DNA of 13,623 nt from Gemmatimonadaceae bacterium (lineage in GTDB: Bacteria > Latescibacterota > UBA2968 > UBA8231), in the NCBI GenBank assembly GCA_002726335.1, contig PBSR01000197.1:1-13623 (forward strand), read 5' to 3'. The notes under the pieces are model-generated. The model did no database searches, was not told the DNA's origin, and saw only the letters and a list, made by a program, of their open reading frames with translations. Within the stretch, counting starts at the first letter, position 1, and every line of letters starts with the position of its first letter. The translations under genes were made by a program, and so were the position numbers. Positions 268 to 12,903 of this stretch are shown here, one piece after another.

Positions 268-2214
268 TCAGAAGTTGAAGATCATGTTCCCTTCAAACCC
301 ATACGCCCCGTCGATGAAGACCCACATACACGCCGTGGTGAACTCACCGAGAATCAGCCCCAAAAAAAAGGGCTGCAGCGCCCGGTAGGTGCCGATCCCC
401 CCATACCGCAGCACCACGCTCTTGGCCAGCCACGCCAGGAAGATGGCGAACCAGCCGTAGGACATGATCGTGTACGTGTTGGCGATCGGGAATCCGATGG
501 GATGCAGGGGCCACCAGATGAATCGATGTCTCAGGAACAGCAGCACCGTCATCACGCCGGCGCCGAGGCCGGTAAATCCGAGGCGCGGCAGGAAGGGATC
601 CGGCGCGTTGTAGACCGAGGTCATGTAGTCGAAGGGCCACTTCGGCGCGCCCACGTAGTACCAGCTGTGCAGATTGATGCCGCCGTGGGCGTAGGCCATC
701 GTCATGGTGAACCAGATGGAGCCAGCCAGACCGACGACGACGGCGACGGCCATGGCGATGGGCATGCCCCGAAACCGACGCCGGTCACCGTCGTCGGTGA
801 CCAGTTTCAGCGAGTGGATGACGGCGTTCATCATGTTCGCCGCGGTCTCGCCGATCCACACTGTACTCAGCCCCAGGCCCGTCATGTTCTTCAGGCCCAG
901 CACCTCGGGACCGAAGCCGCGGGTGATGAAGGCCTGCGGCACCATCGGTGTCTGGGCCCCGGGCAGGCCGGCCTCGGCCACGATCCGGGACAATCCGATG
1001 AACGCCCCCAGTGAGCCGAAAACGAGCAGCACAGCCACGTAGAACGACAGTCCTGTCAGCGTCAGCCAGGCGATCATGAACAACACACCGGACAACAGTC
1101 CGCCGAAGGCCAGTCGGGGCGACATCACTTCACCGACGCCACGCTCTCCGGAGACGGCCTGTCGCCAGAGGCCGCGGATGTGTGGTGTCGCCGTCCATAG
1201 AAGGAACGCGACGAACACCATCATCGCTCCGGACTGCTGGTAGGAGATAATGGGTCCGGCGCCGCCGGAGGTCCAGATGTCCCCCGTGCCGATCTGGATG
1301 CCCACCCGTGTCAGCACCATGCGCTGCACCTGGCCGACGAGAAAGAAGAACCACATGCTGAAGGCCACGTTGAGCGGCATCAGGTAGGCGAGGCCCAGCA
1401 CGGGAAGGTTCAGGCGGAAGGGCACCACGGGCACGCCCGTCATGACGGTGAGGTTGCCCACCAGCGGGATCTTCTGGAAGGCGTCGGTGTAGTTCCCCAT
1501 CGAGTTCCACGTGTGCAGCAGCAATGGGATGGCAAATCCGAGCCACATGATGCGGTTGCTGAACAGCTTGCCGAGCACGGTCTGTTCGTCATCCTCGTCC
1601 TCGATCATGGCCAGCGGCAGCCGCGTCAGGGGAAAGACGAGCCGCTCGTTTTCCACCCACTGGCCGCGCAGCAGCACACCAAGACAGAACAGGACGCCGT
1701 AGAACACGAGGATGAAGGTGATCCACGTCGCCAATGGTGTCGCCCATGCCTCCCACGGGATGCTCATACCCCGGGGCAGTCCCTCGTAAAACAGGCGCAC
1801 TGCCCGCGTGTCTGTAGGCGACAGCCAGTGACTCAGATTGGGGACGAACAGGGCGTCCCAGTTGTTCTCGGGCGTGGCGTAATAGAGAACACCCGAGATC
1901 ACCGACAGGAAGGTCCCGGTAAAACCCGTGGTCACCACCACCGAGCCGACGAGCATCATCACGTACACCGTGATCAACTCGGTGCGGCGGAAGGCGAACC
2001 GTCTCGACAGCATCCGCAGCACGGGCTGAGCCACGGCGACCACGGCGAACAGCAGAAAAACGGCGATGATGGGAATCGCATTGCTCGTCAGCTGCGAGCC
2101 TTTGACCACCAGCACCGCCCACGGACTGACGACGCTGATGACGGCCACCAGAAACGCTCCGGCCAGCACGGCACGGAAGGTGACAGCACGCACCAGAGAG
2201 GATGCCTCGCTCAC
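268..2214 (-). CDS. DUF6785/DUF6784-type polytopic membrane protein, possible transporter
   Basis: A 648-residue integral membrane protein, last gene of the five-gene operon. It shows about 12-14 hydrophobic segments, for example near residues 14-36, 45-65, 80-110, 160-182 and 378-425, alternating with short charged loops. The motif ENERLVFPLTRLP after the fourth or fifth segment and the overall length agree with what I remember of the DUF6785/DUF6784 proteins of Planctomycetota and related phyla, which resemble oligopeptide-type transporters. The start is the GTG at 2214: it overlaps the TGA of the upstream flavoprotein by 4 bp (GTGA) and has a strong Shine-Dalgarno AAGGAGG at 2219-2225. A frame extension to 2292 would intrude into the upstream gene. 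Position in a catabolic operon suggests substrate uptake, but no member with a known substrate is recognisable. Family assignment is fairly confident; transport function is inferred. Confidence 0.8.
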   Translation of the reverse strand: MSEASSLVRAVTFRAVLAGAFLVAVISVVSPWAVLVVKGSQLTSNAIPIIAVFLLFAVVAVAQPVLRMLSRRFAFRRTELITVYVMMLVGSVVVTTGFTGTFLSVISGVLYYATPENNWDALFVPNLSHWLSPTDTRAVRLFYEGLPRGMSIPWEAWATPLATWITFILVFYGVLFCLGVLLRGQWVENERLVFPLTRLPLAMIEDEDDEQTVLGKLFSNRIMWLGFAIPLLLHTWNSMGNYTDAFQKIPLVGNLTVMTGVPVVPFRLNLPVLGLAYLMPLNVAFSMWFFFLVGQVQRMVLTRVGIQIGTGDIWTSGGAGPIISYQQSGAMMVFVAFLLWTATPHIRGLWRQAVSGERGVGEVMSPRLAFGGLLSGVLFMIAWLTLTGLSFYVAVLLVFGSLGAFIGLSRIVAEAGLPGAQTPMVPQAFITRGFGPEVLGLKNMTGLGLSTVWIGETAANMMNAVIHSLKLVTDDGDRRRFRGMPIAMAVAVVVGLAGSIWFTMTMAYAHGGINLHSWYYVGAPKWPFDYMTSVYNAPDPFLPRLGFTGLGAGVMTVLLFLRHRFIWWPLHPIGFPIANTYTIMSYGWFAIFLAWLAKSVVLRYGGIGTYRALQPFFLGLILGEFTTACMWVFIDGAYGFEGNMIFNF

Positions 2215-3707
2215 ACGGCCTCCTTCGCCAGTTGGCGACCGACGAGGCGGCCGCTCGTCATCGCCCAGGCGATGTGCAGACCGTGGCCCCACAGGACCTG
2301 ACCGCCCAGGCCGTTCTGGCCGATGGCGAAGAGTCCCGGGATCGGTTCACTGAGTGAGTCCAGCGCCCGGAACTTCTGGTCGATGGCCACGCCCCCCTCC
2401 GTCGTGGTGAAGTAGGCCTTTGCCGGCCCCAGCAACACCCACCGGCGGCCGGTCAGTTCGGGACACGAGTCGGTGGCTCTCTCCTCGTTCGCCGAACGCA
2501 CCGCTTCGACCAGCCCTGATGGCGGCAGTCCCCTGGCGGTCGCCACAGCTTCAACTGAATCGCCTGCCACGGCCACATCCTTCCGCAGCTTCAAATAGTC
2601 GGCCACGTAGGCGTAGGCGATCTTTGGTGCCGTCGAGATAAAATGCGGCCACGCGCTGTAGCGTTCGATCAGTCCTTCATCCAGCAGCAGGTAGCAGATC
2701 TTGCCCGGCTGCTGCGCGACAGCGATCTCGCGATCGGGCCAGCAGCGCTCGTCGCAGAACCGGTCTCCCCGCTCGTTGACAAGAATGGCACCGTCATCGA
2801 ACAGCGCGTTCTCGGGGTGTTGCCAGGTGACGAGCAGCCGCCGCGTCATGGCCGCCATGATGAAGGGCGGGATCCAGGGCAGCAGCCACGACATCAGCCG
2901 CGGGATCGGCCCCCTTGCCGGCAACCATTGCTGAAGTGTGCGACGCGGCGGCGGCACGAAGCGCAACTCGGGACCGTAGGCGACATCTATGTTGATCAGC
3001 CGCGCTCCCTCACGCTCTGCCAGCAGGTGCCCGTCTCCCGTTGATTTCTGGTTGATACCTTCCACTGCCCTGAAGGTCTCTCCGAGATGGCGGCCAATCA
3101 GCTCCTTTGAATTGGTATAGTCGCCAGCGGCCAGTACGACGCCCCGTCGCGCCGAGAACACCTGCCGTTCGCCCTGGACACCGACTTCGGCGATCACTCC
3201 CGTCACCCCACCCCCGTCGGCACGTGTCAGCGCCACCGCCTGAGCCTGACAGAGGAGACGCCCGCCACATCCTTGCAGACGATCCTGCAGTGTCGCTATG
3301 TAGGCCCTGGCCCCGGGGATGACGTTGTGCATCCGTGGCACTCGATTCGGTGGCTCCGGATTCGGACCCTGAAAACTCAATCCCATGTCCTGCAGCCAGG
3401 CCAGCGTATCGGCGCCGTGGCCTAGAAACCAGCGTCTCAGCTCCTCGTTGTTGCGTGCCTCGATCTTGCGGGGAGCAAAGCAGCCGGCGTCCTCGGCGTG
3501 GTCATCGACACGATCGACGATACCTGCCTGCTGCTGCTGTGGTGTCCGATTTGCCGTGAAGGAGCCCACGGCGAGCCCCGTGGTACCGCCGGGTTCGGGC
3601 TCTTTTTCCAGGACGAGAACCTGGGCGCCGTTTTCGGCGGCGCTCACCGCGGCGGCGAGTCCGCTGCCGCCGCCACCGACGATGATGACATCGAAGGTCT
3701 CAGGCAC
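2211..3707 (-). CDS. FAD-dependent oxidoreductase, fumarate reductase/3-ketosteroid dehydrogenase-like (FAD_binding_2 family)
   Basis: A 498-residue soluble flavoprotein. The N-terminus has the dinucleotide-binding fold: beta strand DVIIV, glycine motif GGGGSGLAAA (11-20) and the acidic residue ending the second strand (VLEKE, Glu34). It continues with the GGTT segment (40-43) typical of the fumarate reductase/ketosteroid dehydrogenase superfamily. The C-terminal FAD contact is at about 432-490 (TTTEGGVAID, then GLFAIGQNGLGG and a Gly-His-Gly-rich helix). Family members oxidise or reduce C-C bonds next to a carbonyl or carboxylate. The substrate here is unknown, and I do not identify the family's catalytic arginine. 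The start is the GTG at 3707, three bases after the TAG of the upstream gene; its ribosome site is weak (AGGT), so coupled translation is likely. Its own stop overlaps the DUF6785 start. Confidence 0.85.
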   Translation of the reverse strand: MPETFDVIIVGGGGSGLAAAVSAAENGAQVLVLEKEPEPGGTTGLAVGSFTANRTPQQQQAGIVDRVDDHAEDAGCFAPRKIEARNNEELRRWFLGHGADTLAWLQDMGLSFQGPNPEPPNRVPRMHNVIPGARAYIATLQDRLQGCGGRLLCQAQAVALTRADGGGVTGVIAEVGVQGERQVFSARRGVVLAAGDYTNSKELIGRHLGETFRAVEGINQKSTGDGHLLAEREGARLINIDVAYGPELRFVPPPRRTLQQWLPARGPIPRLMSWLLPWIPPFIMAAMTRRLLVTWQHPENALFDDGAILVNERGDRFCDERCWPDREIAVAQQPGKICYLLLDEGLIERYSAWPHFISTAPKIAYAYVADYLKLRKDVAVAGDSVEAVATARGLPPSGLVEAVRSANEERATDSCPELTGRRWVLLGPAKAYFTTTEGGVAIDQKFRALDSLSEPIPGLFAIGQNGLGGQVLWGHGLHIAWAMTSGRLVGRQLAKEAV

Positions 3708-3710
3708 TAC

Positions 3711-5618
3711 CTATACCTGTACGGTGACAGAGCTGGTGCTGCCGGCGAGACCGTGGGCGTTGACGACACGCGCCTCGAGCCGGTGTTCGCCGGCGGGCAC
3801 AGGCCAGTCGAAGGCGGGCGGCCGTTCCTCCCAGCCGCCGCCATCAACCCGGATCTCGTACCGATCGAGATCGGCGCAAACACCCTCCAGATCGACATGC
3901 AGGACGCCAGCCGCCGCCTGCAGATGAATCCGCACTCGATCCACGTCCCACTCGAAGTCACCCACCCGGTCCGAATGCCGGCTGTACCAGGGCAGCGGCA
4001 CCGTGCCCTCATCCTCCCAGAAGAGGTAGCCGTCGAAGTGGTAGGCCCCCTGACCGTTCTCCGGCTCTCCCGGTCCCAGTGTCGACGGCTCGTCGTTGCG
4101 CGGGTTCACCATGAGGCGTTCCCAAAGCTGGGACCGCTGTTCCACCGTGTGGTTTGTCAGCATCGGTGGCGCCGGCGGGTTCATACTGACACCCGCGAGG
4201 TCCTTCTCGACCCAGGCGCTGTGCACTTCCCGGGCGCTGAGGGGCACGCCGTCCCGTTCGAAGTGGTAGGTGTATTTGGTGGCATCGGTGCTGTCGCCGC
4301 CCGTGTCCATGGTCACCCACTTGCCGTAGTCGTTCGACCAGACCTCGCTGACACAGTGAGCGTGGATCACGAGAGTCCGGGCCATGAACCCCAGGACGGC
4401 ACAGCACTGGGTAAAGACGGTGGCGTAATGGGTGCACATGCCCAGCGACAGCTTCTTGCTGGCCAGCTCCAGAATCAACAGCGCGTCCCACGGCGGACAG
4501 AACTGCAGCTCGCCTCGATTCCAACCATCCTCCCACTGTTCGCGCACCCATTGGCTGAGCAGGACCATGGCCTCGAACTCGGTCTTGGCCGGCCCCACCA
4601 CCTGGTCGAGTTTCCAGCGCTCACGCAGGATGCGGCCGCGCTCGTCGTCGGCTTGCAGGTGGGAGAATCGATACGAGCCATACACGAGGGGACGATTGTC
4701 CGCCTCGGTGATCCGAGTGGCCGACTTCGACACTGGGTCGACGTCGGCAGTCAGCCTGACGCCCCGCAGAACAGGACTGACGGCGGGGTCGGTGCAGGAG
4801 AGCAGCACCCGCCACTGAAAGAAGCGAGCATCGACAGCCGGTTGAGCACCAGCCGTCTCCAGTGAAGTCCAGGCACTCCACGTCTGCGGCGCGTAGGCCG
4901 GCGTTGGGCCCGCCCGCCACTCTACCTGAACTGCCGTTCCGGCAGGAAACTCACCCTCGGCCCTGATCTGCACTCTTTCCACGCGGCCGGAGCAGGCGAC
5001 GCCTTCACCAGTCAGGTCGAGCAGGTCGGCAACCGAAGAGATGACCTCGCCACTGCCCACGTGCTGATCGAGCCAAAGTCTCACGAGGTATTCGCCGTCG
5101 GCGCGATCGTTGACTCCCATCTCCTGCGAGCGCCACGTCTGTCCGCCGTCGTCGCTCACCTCGCTGCGGTCCGGATGCCGGCTCTCTTCGATCAGCAGCG
5201 TCCAGCCCGCTTCCCCGACAGCGGCAAACCGGACCTCGTTCACCCCCTGACACAGCCACGTGGGGTCGATCTCGATGGCGTGCCAGGCATCTTCCCAGTA
5301 TTCCCGCGTCGACGCCCAGGTGACGACGGTCTCGTGGCCGTTCACCGTCACAGTCAGCTGGCCGCCGTCGGTGTCGCAGCGCAGGTAGACACACAGCTTC
5401 GCCCGGCGCGCCGTCACGGGTGCTTCGAGCAGCAGCATCTTGCGCGCCTGACGCAGGGCGCTGAGCCGCTCACCGTCGCGGGTGTTGCAGCGCCCCGCCT
5501 CATCGGTCAGGGTGACGCCGCGCCGCAGACGCAGAGCATCGTCCCGCCATACGACGCTGCGTCTCGGGCAGGCCGCAAGCTCATCTGCCAGCCAGTTGCG
5601 GGTGATCGTGTCTGTCAT
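3711..5618 (-). CDS. Transglutaminase-like cysteine enzyme with flanking beta-sandwich domains
   Basis: A 635-residue protein centred on a transglutaminase-like core (Transglut_core type) at about residues 345-445. The Cys-His-Asp triad is visible: Cys395 in GMCTHYATVF, His421 in HCVSEVW and Asp438 in VTMDTGG, with spacings usual for the fold. Bacterial members are mostly proteases, peptide N-glycanase-like amidases or cross-linking enzymes. The N-terminal part (about 70-150) resembles a galactose-binding-like jelly roll (TVTVNGHE, then EIDPTWLCQGVNEVRF). Residues about 177-293 look like a second beta domain ending in SPVLRGVRL, and the C-terminus (about 555-635) looks like an Ig/fibronectin-type fold. 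There is no signal peptide, unusual for such an architecture. The ATG at 5618 is chosen over an upstream extension to 5774 because it has an AGGGGG site six bases upstream and leaves the preceding aminotransferase intact. Activity is likely; substrate unknown. Confidence 0.8.
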   Translation of the reverse strand: MTDTITRNWLADELAACPRRSVVWRDDALRLRRGVTLTDEAGRCNTRDGERLSALRQARKMLLLEAPVTARRAKLCVYLRCDTDGGQLTVTVNGHETVVTWASTREYWEDAWHAIEIDPTWLCQGVNEVRFAAVGEAGWTLLIEESRHPDRSEVSDDGGQTWRSQEMGVNDRADGEYLVRLWLDQHVGSGEVISSVADLLDLTGEGVACSGRVERVQIRAEGEFPAGTAVQVEWRAGPTPAYAPQTWSAWTSLETAGAQPAVDARFFQWRVLLSCTDPAVSPVLRGVRLTADVDPVSKSATRITEADNRPLVYGSYRFSHLQADDERGRILRERWKLDQVVGPAKTEFEAMVLLSQWVREQWEDGWNRGELQFCPPWDALLILELASKKLSLGMCTHYATVFTQCCAVLGFMARTLVIHAHCVSEVWSNDYGKWVTMDTGGDSTDATKYTYHFERDGVPLSAREVHSAWVEKDLAGVSMNPPAPPMLTNHTVEQRSQLWERLMVNPRNDEPSTLGPGEPENGQGAYHFDGYLFWEDEGTVPLPWYSRHSDRVGDFEWDVDRVRIHLQAAAGVLHVDLEGVCADLDRYEIRVDGGGWEERPPAFDWPVPAGEHRLEARVVNAHGLAGSTSSVTVQV

Positions 5619-5624
5619 CGTGTG

Positions 5625-5630
5625 CCCCCT
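5625..5630 (-). promoter_or_regulatory. Ribosome binding site that fixes the transglutaminase-like gene start
   Basis: AGGGGG lies six bases before the ATG at 5618 and overlaps the TAG stop of the aminotransferase gene (5629-5631). Terminating ribosomes would therefore sit on this site, consistent with translational coupling, and it supports the short start over the frame extension to 5774. Confidence 0.65.
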
Positions 5631-6972
5631 ATTGGACCAGCCGACGGAAGGATTCTTCCACCAGCTCACATTCGATGAGATCGTCGAGGCAGTCCCGCTG
5701 CAACCCGTCGGCGATGACGGCGAAACTCTTCCGTACAGCGGCTTCGGTCCGATCCAGTGCTTCGGCGTCCTCATGGGCGGCGTTGAAGAAGAACCCCCCG
5801 GACAGAATCACCCCGTTGCGCGCATTCTCCTGCACGAACAAGGTAGCCACCTTCGAGGCCTGACTGGCAGTACAGTCAAATTGTATGCGTGGATGGGCGG
5901 CCACGCCGACACACCGGGCCGGACAGCCCGTCTGCCTCGCGGCGGCGTCGACTCGTTCACGGAACGACGCCCCCAGCCCCTCAAACAGGGCTGGCGCGTC
6001 GATCCGCTCGAGTTCGCGGATCGTCGCCAGGGCTGCCGTAATGCCGACGTTATCATCCCAGTAGGCGCTGGAGATGAACATGCGTGACACCGGCTCCATC
6101 ACGGCACGTCGGCCGACGACGGCAGCCATGGGATACCCGTTGGACATGGCCTTGGCAAAGACGGTGAGATCGGGCGTCACTCCCGCTACCTGCTGGACGC
6201 CTCCCAGTGAGATCCGCCAACCGCAGGAGACCTCGTCGAAGATCAGCACCACACCGTAGCGGTCGGCCAGGGCTCGCACTCCTTCCAGGTACCCCTCGGG
6301 AGGCAACTCCGTGCGCATGGGCTCCATGATGATAGCCGCCACTTCGCTGTCATTGGCCCGCAGCAGATCTTCGAGCTGGTCGAGGTCACCATACTCGAAG
6401 GGCATGGCCGTCCCCTCCAGGCCCTGGGGCACGCCGATGGGATCGATGCCGTTGAACAGATGCCCTGCAAGACGCTCCTCCCCGAGATTGGCCGCCAGGT
6501 ACCAGTCGTGCCAGCCGTGGTAGCCGCTGAACAGGACCTTGTCACGGCCCGTGACACCACGGGCGATCCGCACGGCCACCGTACAAGCCTCGCCGCCTCC
6601 TTTGGCGTAGCGCACCATCTCCGCCGACGGTACCAGACGTACCAGCAGCTCCGCCAACTCCACCGAGGACTCGTGCACGATCGAATACACCGAACCCTTG
6701 TCGATCTGCGCCTTCACGGCCTCGTCGACGACGGGGTTGGCGTAGCCGAGAATGATCGGCCCCACGGCACTCGACCAGTCGATGAACTCGTTGCCATCCA
6801 CGTCGGTGATGCGGCAGCCGCTGGCGCTTTCGGCATAGATCGGACTGAAGCCGAGAGCGGCCCGCGTCGGTCGGCGGCTGATCAGCTGCGTCGTGCCCGG
6901 GATCAGCTGTCGGGCACGCTGATAGATCTCGAGGGAACGGGTCACAGAGGCGTGCTGAGCCGGAGTTGTCAT
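5629..6972 (-). CDS. Class III PLP-dependent aminotransferase, glutamate-1-semialdehyde aminomutase-like
   Basis: A 447-residue fold-type I PLP enzyme of the class III group closest in motifs to glutamate-1-semialdehyde 2,1-aminomutase (GSAM). Visible signatures: the N-terminal IPGTTQ segment, the phosphate-binding region with GGGEA (125-129), the cofactor-stacking SGYHGWHDW (149-157), Glu217 in IIMEP, the PLP ring-nitrogen aspartate Asp246 in IFDEVSCGWR, and the Schiff-base Lys274 in VFAKAMSNGYP. Length fits the family. Despite similarity to the haem pathway enzyme, its place in a catabolic operon and variations such as KGGGEAC instead of the common NSGTEA type argue for transamination or aminomutation of another amino acid or amino sugar. 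I therefore give no gene symbol. The ATG at 6972 overlaps the TGA of the M81 gene by 4 bp (ATGA). Confidence 0.87.
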   Translation of the reverse strand: MTTPAQHASVTRSLEIYQRARQLIPGTTQLISRRPTRAALGFSPIYAESASGCRITDVDGNEFIDWSSAVGPIILGYANPVVDEAVKAQIDKGSVYSIVHESSVELAELLVRLVPSAEMVRYAKGGGEACTVAVRIARGVTGRDKVLFSGYHGWHDWYLAANLGEERLAGHLFNGIDPIGVPQGLEGTAMPFEYGDLDQLEDLLRANDSEVAAIIMEPMRTELPPEGYLEGVRALADRYGVVLIFDEVSCGWRISLGGVQQVAGVTPDLTVFAKAMSNGYPMAAVVGRRAVMEPVSRMFISSAYWDDNVGITAALATIRELERIDAPALFEGLGASFRERVDAAARQTGCPARCVGVAAHPRIQFDCTASQASKVATLFVQENARNGVILSGGFFFNAAHEDAEALDRTEAAVRKSFAVIADGLQRDCLDDLIECELVEESFRRLVQ

Positions 6973-12542: not shown

Positions 12543-12893
12543 TCAGTCCAGGATCTCGAGCACCTTCTCAGAGGGTCGGGCGATGACGGCCCGCTCGCCG
12601 CGCACGCAGACGGGCCGGTTCATCACACCGGGATGTTCGAGCAACAGTCCGACGAGAGCGTCAGGCGTGTCGTAGTCCTCGAGCTTCAGGCCCAGCTTGT
12701 CAACGGATCCGGGATGCAGGAACTCTGCCGGTGCACACCCCACCTGCTGCAGGAGACGCCGCAGAACGGCTTCACCCGGCGGGTATTCGATGTACTCGAT
12801 GACGTCGAACTCGACGTCGCGGGCGCGCAGAATCTCGAGCACGCCTCTGGACTTGCTTCAAGTGGGATTGTGGTAGACGATCATGTCAGCCAT
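12543..12893 (-). CDS. arsC: Selenocysteine-containing ArsC-family arsenate reductase (in-frame TGA at 12858-12860)
   Basis: The reading frame from the ATG at 12893 to the TGA at 12543 encodes 116 residues if the internal TGA is read as selenocysteine. The N-terminus MADMIVYHNPT-Sec-SKSRGV aligns with classical ArsC, whose catalytic Cys12 follows the same YHNP segment; Sec falls at residue 12 too. After the TGA the frame stays open and family-like: a GVLEILRAR helix, NRPV (Arg93, equivalent to Arg94) and ARPSEKVLEIL (Arg106, equivalent to Arg107). The usual Arg60 is His60. ArsC reduces arsenate to arsenite with glutathione/glutaredoxin, though some relatives act otherwise. A Shine-Dalgarno GGGAG lies five bases before the ATG. 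The gene follows an M14-like gene by 34 bp. Alternatives are a sequencing error (TGC to TGA) or a nonsense mutation. The exact placement at the catalytic Cys and the hairpin downstream favour selenocysteine. Confidence 0.82.
12822..12845 (-). promoter_or_regulatory. Candidate bacterial SECIS hairpin in the arsC coding sequence
   Basis: In the mRNA, GGCGUGC (12845-12839) pairs with GCGCGCC (12828-12822) as a 7-bp stem with one U-G wobble and a 10-base loop. The loop begins 19 nt after the UGA, within the 16-37 nt window I recall for bacterial SECIS elements. An overlapping alternative fold pairs CAGAG (12849-12845) with UUCUG (12832-12828), then CG with CG, around a UGCU loop. That loop has a G at its second position, as bacterial SECIS rules prefer. 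Which fold forms cannot be decided by eye. Confidence 0.6.
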
Positions 12894-12898
12894 GGATT

Positions 12899-12903
12899 CT
12901 CCC
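12899..12903 (-). promoter_or_regulatory. Ribosome binding site deciding the arsC start
   Basis: GGGAG lies five bases upstream of the ATG at 12893 on the minus strand. It places translation start ahead of the in-frame TGA and supports the full-length selenoprotein reading over a start at the internal GTG (12842), which has no comparable site and would remove the active site. Confidence 0.65.

Follow-up and report, generated by a model that had tools for sequence, protein, structure and literature searches.

A probable UxxS-type selenoprotein of the ArsC family with an in-frame TGA at its active site and two hairpins downstream

The window, meaning the whole stretch of 13,623 nt that was analyzed (contig PBSR01000197.1), was found to carry on its minus strand an ArsC-family gene whose active-site stop codon is almost certainly read as selenocysteine (Sec). 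Taken as a whole, the observations are very probably best explained by a UxxS-type Sec-ArsC, with UGA decoded by SelA, SelB, SelD and tRNA-Sec and with selenolate chemistry at Sec12. This reading is supported because the TGA is conserved in two phylum-level groups and pairs with cysteine (Cys) at one alignment column. It is further supported because the Sec machinery is present in 20–22 of 22 related genomes and because hairpins after the UGA are much commoner in TGA genes than in Cys genes. The same four lines of evidence bear out the first-pass annotation, which had proposed a probable selenoprotein at 12543..12893 with an in-frame TGA at the Cys12 position of ArsC, and its frame and coordinates were verified. 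The features of the gene itself are as follows.

12543..12893, minus strand: predicted Sec-containing ArsC-family gene, 116 aa with Sec12, ending at its own TGA stop (from ORF reading, profile match and relatives)
12858..12860, minus strand: in-frame TGA (Sec codon) at codon 12, the catalytic Cys12 position (from alignment to relatives)
12899..12903, minus strand: GGGAG, Shine-Dalgarno-like, 5 nt before the ATG (read from the sequence)

The start ATG lies at 12893–12891 and the terminator of the Sec-ArsC gene, also TGA, at 12545–12543. The translation begins MADMIVYHNPT-TGA-SKSRG, in which the TGA is residue 12 and forms the UxxS motif U12-S13-K14-S15. A ribosome site ahead of the upstream ATG had been pointed out in the first-pass annotation, and the GGGAG with its 5-nt spacing agrees with this. 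It had also been anticipated that automatic annotation would yield a truncated 99-residue protein, and a mechanical ORF caller run on the window gave exactly that, a piece started by GTG at 12842 and nothing more of the gene. The Sec-ArsC gene is therefore another case which automatic annotation cuts, here to 99 aa with the active site removed. Among database homologues (469 found, 120 listed), 28 of those listed are likewise pieces, of 86–101 aa, one being the window's own; for two of these (P0015 and P0033) the NCBI name is ArsC/Spx/MgsR family protein, from Latescibacteria/Latescibacterota. Rfam at gathering scores and ARAGORN gave no match on the window. Between 268 and 10398 the window carries catabolic-looking neighbors, namely a DUF6785 membrane protein, an FAD-dependent oxidoreductase, a transglutaminase-like protein, a class-III aminotransferase, an M81/MlrC peptidase, an HpcH/HpaI aldolase and (by eye) an LDH2-type dehydrogenase. 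The mechanical starts of several neighbors overlap the preceding gene and are probably placed too far upstream.

A scan of a genome collection of 84,980 species returned 57 ArsC loci, the 12 closest of which (L001–L012) have TGA at codon 12, while the other 45 have TGC (41) or TGT (4). The first-pass annotation had suggested looking for a Cys/Sec pair at this column, and such pairs, TGA against TGC or TGT, were seen in close relatives. Loci of the first group are titled Latescibacteria, Latescibacterota, Gemmatimonadetes or Gemmatimonadaceae. Within the phylum of the genome of L004, an ArsC match was obtained in 42 of 64 genomes and the form with one TGA in 22 of the 64. The window DNA matched 58 of these 64 genomes (best G001, G005, G066 and G067, with 74–84% identity) in a search that covered this phylum alone, and on the basis of these DNA matches and of the ArsC matches the window was placed in the group of L004. 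The second group is the phylum of the genome of L012 (L011–L013 are labeled Myxococcota in the tree), from which an evenly spaced sample of 377 out of a larger group of genomes was searched. Of these, 106 matched at E 1e-15 or better, with TGA in eight rows, comprising UxxS-type genes in G012, G355, G210, G380, G370 and G378 and genes of another type in G113 and G371. TGA and Cys forms interleave in this phylum, at 69% (TGA) versus 68% (Cys) to the same query.

For comparison, a set of 30 TGA genes was used (23 of the first group, counting the window, and seven of the second), with second copies omitted (L071, L073, L075–L077, L085, L087, L089–L091 and L131), together with a set of 33 Cys genes from which L014–L057, a more distant group, were omitted. 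Loci L009 and L010 are nearly alike (identical over 78 columns of alignment A2), and alignment A1 holds 12 of 13 TGA loci, the near-copy L010 having been dropped. Position 12 is Cys in 91 and Ser in one of the 92 full-length listed homologues. A tree of 24 of the 30 TGA genes and 50 Cys proteins, built on few columns and with 21 of its 71 inner branches open, placed the window within a set of 18 rows (17 of them TGA genes) with support 100/100. One Cys protein, P0007, appears to be a Sec-to-Cys reversion since it is nested inside this TGA clade. The well-supported branches require at least two Sec/Cys switches; the parsimony count is five.

The Sec machinery was counted in the 22 TGA-arsC genomes of the phylum of L004, which are relatives of the window. 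The tRNA-Sec was found in 21 of these, selA in 21 at E 1e-20 (20 above the cut-off) and selB in 20, while selD was above the cut-off in all 22 and contained an in-frame TGA itself in 21, the exception (G010) being a fragment at a contig start. Among the first 12 TGA-arsC genomes, ARAGORN reported the anticodon TCA in 10. In G001, which holds the closest ArsC relative, tRNA-Sec and selB were not found, and in G043 selA and selB were not found; a selD with an in-frame TGA is present in both. As regards the second group, selA is present in G011 and G012; G011 has a tRNA-Sec with anticodon TCA, and the sole match to the tRNA-Sec model above the cut-off in G012 reads as a serine tRNA. Of 47 genomes with tRNA-Sec or selA, 22 have the TGA form of arsC, and of the 17 without either, none has it (Fisher p 2e-4), an association that is weak because all 17 machinery-free genomes have no ArsC match of any kind.

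The selD genes of 20 TGA-arsC genomes (L169–L188) are selenoprotein genes in their own right, with the in-frame TGA in a TCG-U-A or CGG-U-A setting. Their proximal hairpin has the sequence GGUC in nine, GGU in nine and neither in two (G006 and G009). The proposal that a GU loop marks the SelB site throughout these genomes was weakened by these last two, the selD loops of which have no GU.

Two explanations which do without Sec were weighed against this evidence. A single TGA interrupts the frame and there is one source for the window, as might be expected of a nonsense mutation, a sequencing error or a pseudogene. Such an origin is scarcely credible, as 29 additional genes from other assemblies share the TGA at this codon and every interior stop listed in the two phylum searches is TGA, never TAA or TAG. 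Decay after the TGA in relatives, which the first-pass annotation had named as evidence that would count against it, was looked for and none was seen, the frames of these genes being open downstream. Differences at first, second and third codon positions number 893/486/1035 in codons 2–11 and 3525/2522/6018 in codons 13–57, a third-position excess which points to a clearly coding sequence downstream of the TGA and weakly to one upstream. Both a pseudogene and a reassigned code were rejected in view of the conserved TGA and of the window genes, 7 of 10 of which (Sec-ArsC gene included) end in TGA. It is because of this last count that the standard code is taken to apply to the window, as had been held in the first-pass annotation. 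It is just as improbable that the TGA is a true stop and that the real product is the 99-aa protein from the GTG at 12842. ORF callers do give this protein, and the 28 pieces among the 120 listed homologues are of the same kind. However, the YHN motif before the TGA (Y7, H8 and N9) is invariant in 25 of 25 aligned genes, the codons of Y7 and N9 varying synonymously, and sequences resembling ribosome sites precede many of the upstream starts of TGA genes, whereas the 99-aa product would be left with neither the first strand nor the active-site residue.

RNAalifold predicted two hairpins after the UGA from 12 TGA genes and the same two from 30.

12822..12845, minus strand: SL1, proximal hairpin starting 12 nt after the UGA, with the stem GGCGUGC/GCGCGCC and a loop of 10 nt; candidate SECIS (-12.0 kcal/mol, z -2.4)
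12802..12817, minus strand: SL2, distal hairpin ACGUCG-AGUU-CGACGU, its loop starting 46 nt after the UGA; holds codons 27–30, GTC GAG TTC GAC

Across genes SL1 starts about 12–15 nt after the UGA, which is the usual place of a SECIS. The full consensus stem is present in 25 of 30 TGA genes versus 1 of 33 Cys genes; the loop is unconserved and the register shifts between genes. The bacterial SECIS (bSECIS) model, as it is given in a 2026 review, has a loop of 3–9 nt, a G in the first two loop positions, a distance of 16–37 nt from the UGA and an energy of -7.5 kcal/mol or lower (PMC13188914). A script of this model, permitting one mismatch and no bulges, was passed by 15 of 30 TGA genes and 7 of 33 Cys genes. 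The SL1 of the window fails this script; its minimum free energy loop is 10 nt long (UCGAGAUUCU). For SL2, the loop AGUU and the 6-bp stem fit the model, but the 46-nt spacing and the -7.0 kcal/mol do not.

The alternative to be weighed for SL2 is that it is a DNA operator (a palindrome) or a product of chance codon conservation, with no part in Sec recoding, which must be regarded as a real if minority possibility. Its sequence does double as a DNA inverted repeat. The six pairs are complete in all 30 TGA genes, where every cell is paired in 29 distinct rows, versus 4 of 33 Cys genes (L013, L096, L097 and L138). The stem has been kept by compensatory change at three of the six pairs, in L149 (one pair) and L146 (three pairs), the other three being invariant. 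The covariation score of 0.148 is nearly equaled when the 3′ partners are slid by three columns (0.146), but only 66% of cells are then paired versus 100%; the shuffles used for the pair counts take no account of kinship. The covariation term of RNAalifold is small (-0.71 kcal/mol). Folding energy alone proves nothing, since the whole stretch of 63 nt has a z-score of -1.58 and 17 of 200 shuffles fold as well.

The sequence of SL2 speaks against chance. Codons 27–30 are identical in 25 of 25 aligned genes, and among the 30 invariant residues of that alignment the columns with a single codon outside this block are TGA12, His8 and Met92, which has only one codon. The 12-mer occurs in 29 of 30 TGA genes and in none of the 33 Cys genes. 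From local codon usage about 2 of 29 would be expected, a sum taken over the 29 TGA genes other than L146 (which has no VEFD) and based, for some loci, on a small number of codons (319 to 6297). In all 22 TGA genomes arsC contains a 14-mer, CGTCGAGTTCGACG, of which seven have no other copy, although it is found somewhere in 15 of 42 non-TGA genomes; searched for across the loci, with the distant Cys group L014–L057 included, it was found in TGA arsC genes only. The Cys gene L138 encodes the same VEFD peptide with GAT as its Asp codon, and the stem still forms with wobbles, whereas the Cys gene L013 has a perfect six-pair stem at the same place with a different loop. The exception in sequence among TGA genes, L146, differs in both SL2 sequence and loop, as a DNA or chance origin would allow, and has its own stem at this place together with a proximal GGUC-loop hairpin 17 nt after the UGA.

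SL2 accompanies the TGA form, as is evident from its pairing and core sequence in TGA genes versus Cys genes, and it may take part in recoding; it may also, or instead, serve as a DNA site or a translational pause. A rather doubtful but specific proposal is that the recoding signal is bipartite, in which case SL1, as a stem only, would shorten the path and the loop recognized by SelB would be the AGUU of the ultraconserved SL2, 46 nt after the UGA. This spacing lies beyond the 16–37 nt of the accepted bacterial SECIS model. That model guides the prediction of selenoprotein genes, and if SL2 takes part in recoding, it is too narrow for UxxS Sec-ArsC.

When the TGA is read as U, the window protein matches the Pfam family ArsC (PF03960) with 38 bits against a cut-off of 24. 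With Cys in place of Sec it scores 91.6 bits with the arsC equivalog TIGR00014, under the cut-off of 106.05, and its 26.7 bits with TIGR01617 are likewise under the cut-off (75.05). An AlphaFold2 model (pLDDT 93) predicts the ArsC fold for the protein, the top 11 PDB matches of the model being arsenate reductases with TM 0.84–0.87, R60 mutants among them. Alignment to R773 ArsC (1jzw) indicates that the window protein keeps H8, S15, R93 (=R94) and R106 (=R107). S15 is invariant in all 25 aligned TGA genes, and H8, S15 and the equivalents of R94 and R107 are invariant in the 38 rows of alignment A4. The first-pass annotation had described good ArsC sequence on both sides of the TGA with arginine motifs; this stands as regards PF03960, H8, S15, R93 and R106, but the third residue of the arsenate triad is a histidine.

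12714..12716, minus strand: His60 codon, aligned with the arsenate-triad residue Arg60 of R773 ArsC (from alignment to 1jzw)

Residue 60 is His in 23 of the 25 aligned TGA genes, all from the group of the window, and Arg in the other two (L011 and L012). His60 is likewise present in 28 of 28 database pieces (two by eye), while Arg60 is kept in 7 of 7 TGA genes of the second group. In the 92 full-length listed homologues (read partly by eye) Arg occurs in at least 89 and His in P0005 and P0007, with P0099 ambiguous. In P0005, a full-length relative with His60, position 12 is Ser (YHNDRSGKS), possibly through loss of the nucleophile by a Sec-to-Ser change. P0007 keeps His60 and has no SL2-encoding VEFD peptide, which would fit a decay of SL2 following the change back to Cys.

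From these elements a course of events can be proposed. RNA structure within the coding sequence, shortly after the UGA at codon 12, would direct a bacterial SelA/SelB/SelD/tRNA-Sec system to decode that UGA as Sec. As a selenolate, Sec12 would then attack an oxyanion or an oxidized substrate with His8, Ser15, Arg93 and Arg106 as putative helpers, after which Sec12 would be resolved by a partner of the glutathione/glutaredoxin type. Sec insertion in the organism of the window and the resolving partner are presumed, as are the parts played in catalysis by Sec12 and its helper residues, which are taken from knowledge of ArsC.

Arsenate is plausible as that substrate, but at about even odds, because Arg60 is His in the group of the window. 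The protein may be a selenoprotein but some other thiol/selenol reductase of the ArsC/Spx/YfgD-like superfamily, which has close to, if slightly under, an even chance of being correct. In E. coli ArsC the Arg60/Arg94/Arg107 triad is reportedly essential (PMC3169414); in the window protein it is broken by His60. A domain scan of the other eight window proteins gave no arsenic protein, and no neighbor common to most of 13 loci was detected by blastp, with crude ORF picking that included some antisense frames. Acr3 was found in 6 of 22 TGA-arsC genomes, and a search of 64 genomes in the phylum of L004 gave ArsB in none. Arsenate as substrate is therefore unproven, given His60 in 23 of 23 TGA genes of this group, the missed equivalog cut-off, the absence of an adjoining ars operon and the Acr3 count. 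Against a different substrate are the invariant H8, S15 and R94/R107 equivalents and the nearest solved folds, which are arsenate reductases, R60 mutants included. In view of His60, the missing ars context and the Acr3 and ArsB counts, the protein is named here an ArsC-family selenoprotein reductase. The His60 change raises the question of whether Sec lets the ArsC fold dispense with part of the arsenate triad or whether the change marks a change of substrate.

The UxxS Sec-ArsC family has already been predicted and the window gene is a further member. The first-pass annotation had supposed that the family might not be new, which is correct since it was predicted in 2005 and 2008 (PMC1088965, PMC2398784, PMC9312934, PMC13188914). 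It had also supposed that very few members are documented, which the surveys contradict. A Sec-containing arsenate reductase was described as a new family with 14 sequences in the Sargasso Sea survey of 2005 (PMC1088965), and the GOS survey of 2008 lists ArsC 1 (UxxS, 77 sequences) and Arsenate reductase 2 (UxxC, 42 sequences) (PMC2398784). Both the UxxS and the UxxC types are listed in reviews of 2022 and 2026 (PMC9312934, PMC13188914), the latter stating that the functions of a selenoprotein group including arsenate reductase are largely uncharacterized. A literature search of titles, abstract openings and text passages, with figures (including the 2005 SECIS) outside its scope, gave no description of the distal hairpin or of His60. 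These two features go beyond the literature found and are points for specialist follow-up.

Compared by description, the window protein resembles the UxxS Sec-ArsC (COG1393/TIGR00014, MBT3519430.1) in belonging to the ArsC family with Sec at the catalytic Cys and U12-S-K-S15, while its His60 and SL2 are not mentioned in the descriptions of the 2005 and 2008 UxxS sequences. The related genomes examined here carry this predicted type alongside the Sec machinery. The UxxC arsenate reductase-like selenoprotein (NF041106; Arsenate reductase 2 of the GOS survey) shares the ArsC superfamily and the place of the in-frame TGA, but differs in its UxxC motif. ArsC-like genes with an in-frame TGA in the setting RT-U-(G/S)(T/A)C, separate from the UxxS genes, were observed in the second phylum (L161–L165, from G285, G420, G178, G346 and G314); they fit NF041106 as labeled in the 2026 review (PMC13188914), and L168 (G182) is a Cys form. 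The ArsC-family genes L166 (G113) and L167 (G371), with TGA in an FHKPx-U-STS setting, are distinct from both the UxxS and the UxxC groups. Spx/MgsR regulators have the superfamily fold in common with the window protein, which is unlike Spx in scoring under the TIGR01617 cut-off; the Spx motif is CxxC, as opposed to UxxS. The glutaredoxin-dependent arsenate reductase ArsC of plasmid R773 (PDB 1i9d/1jzw) shares with the window protein the predicted fold, H8, a nucleophile at residue 12, S15 and the equivalents of R94 and R107, from which the window protein departs in having Sec for Cys12, His for Arg60, a shorter C-terminus and a TIGR00014 score below the cut-off.
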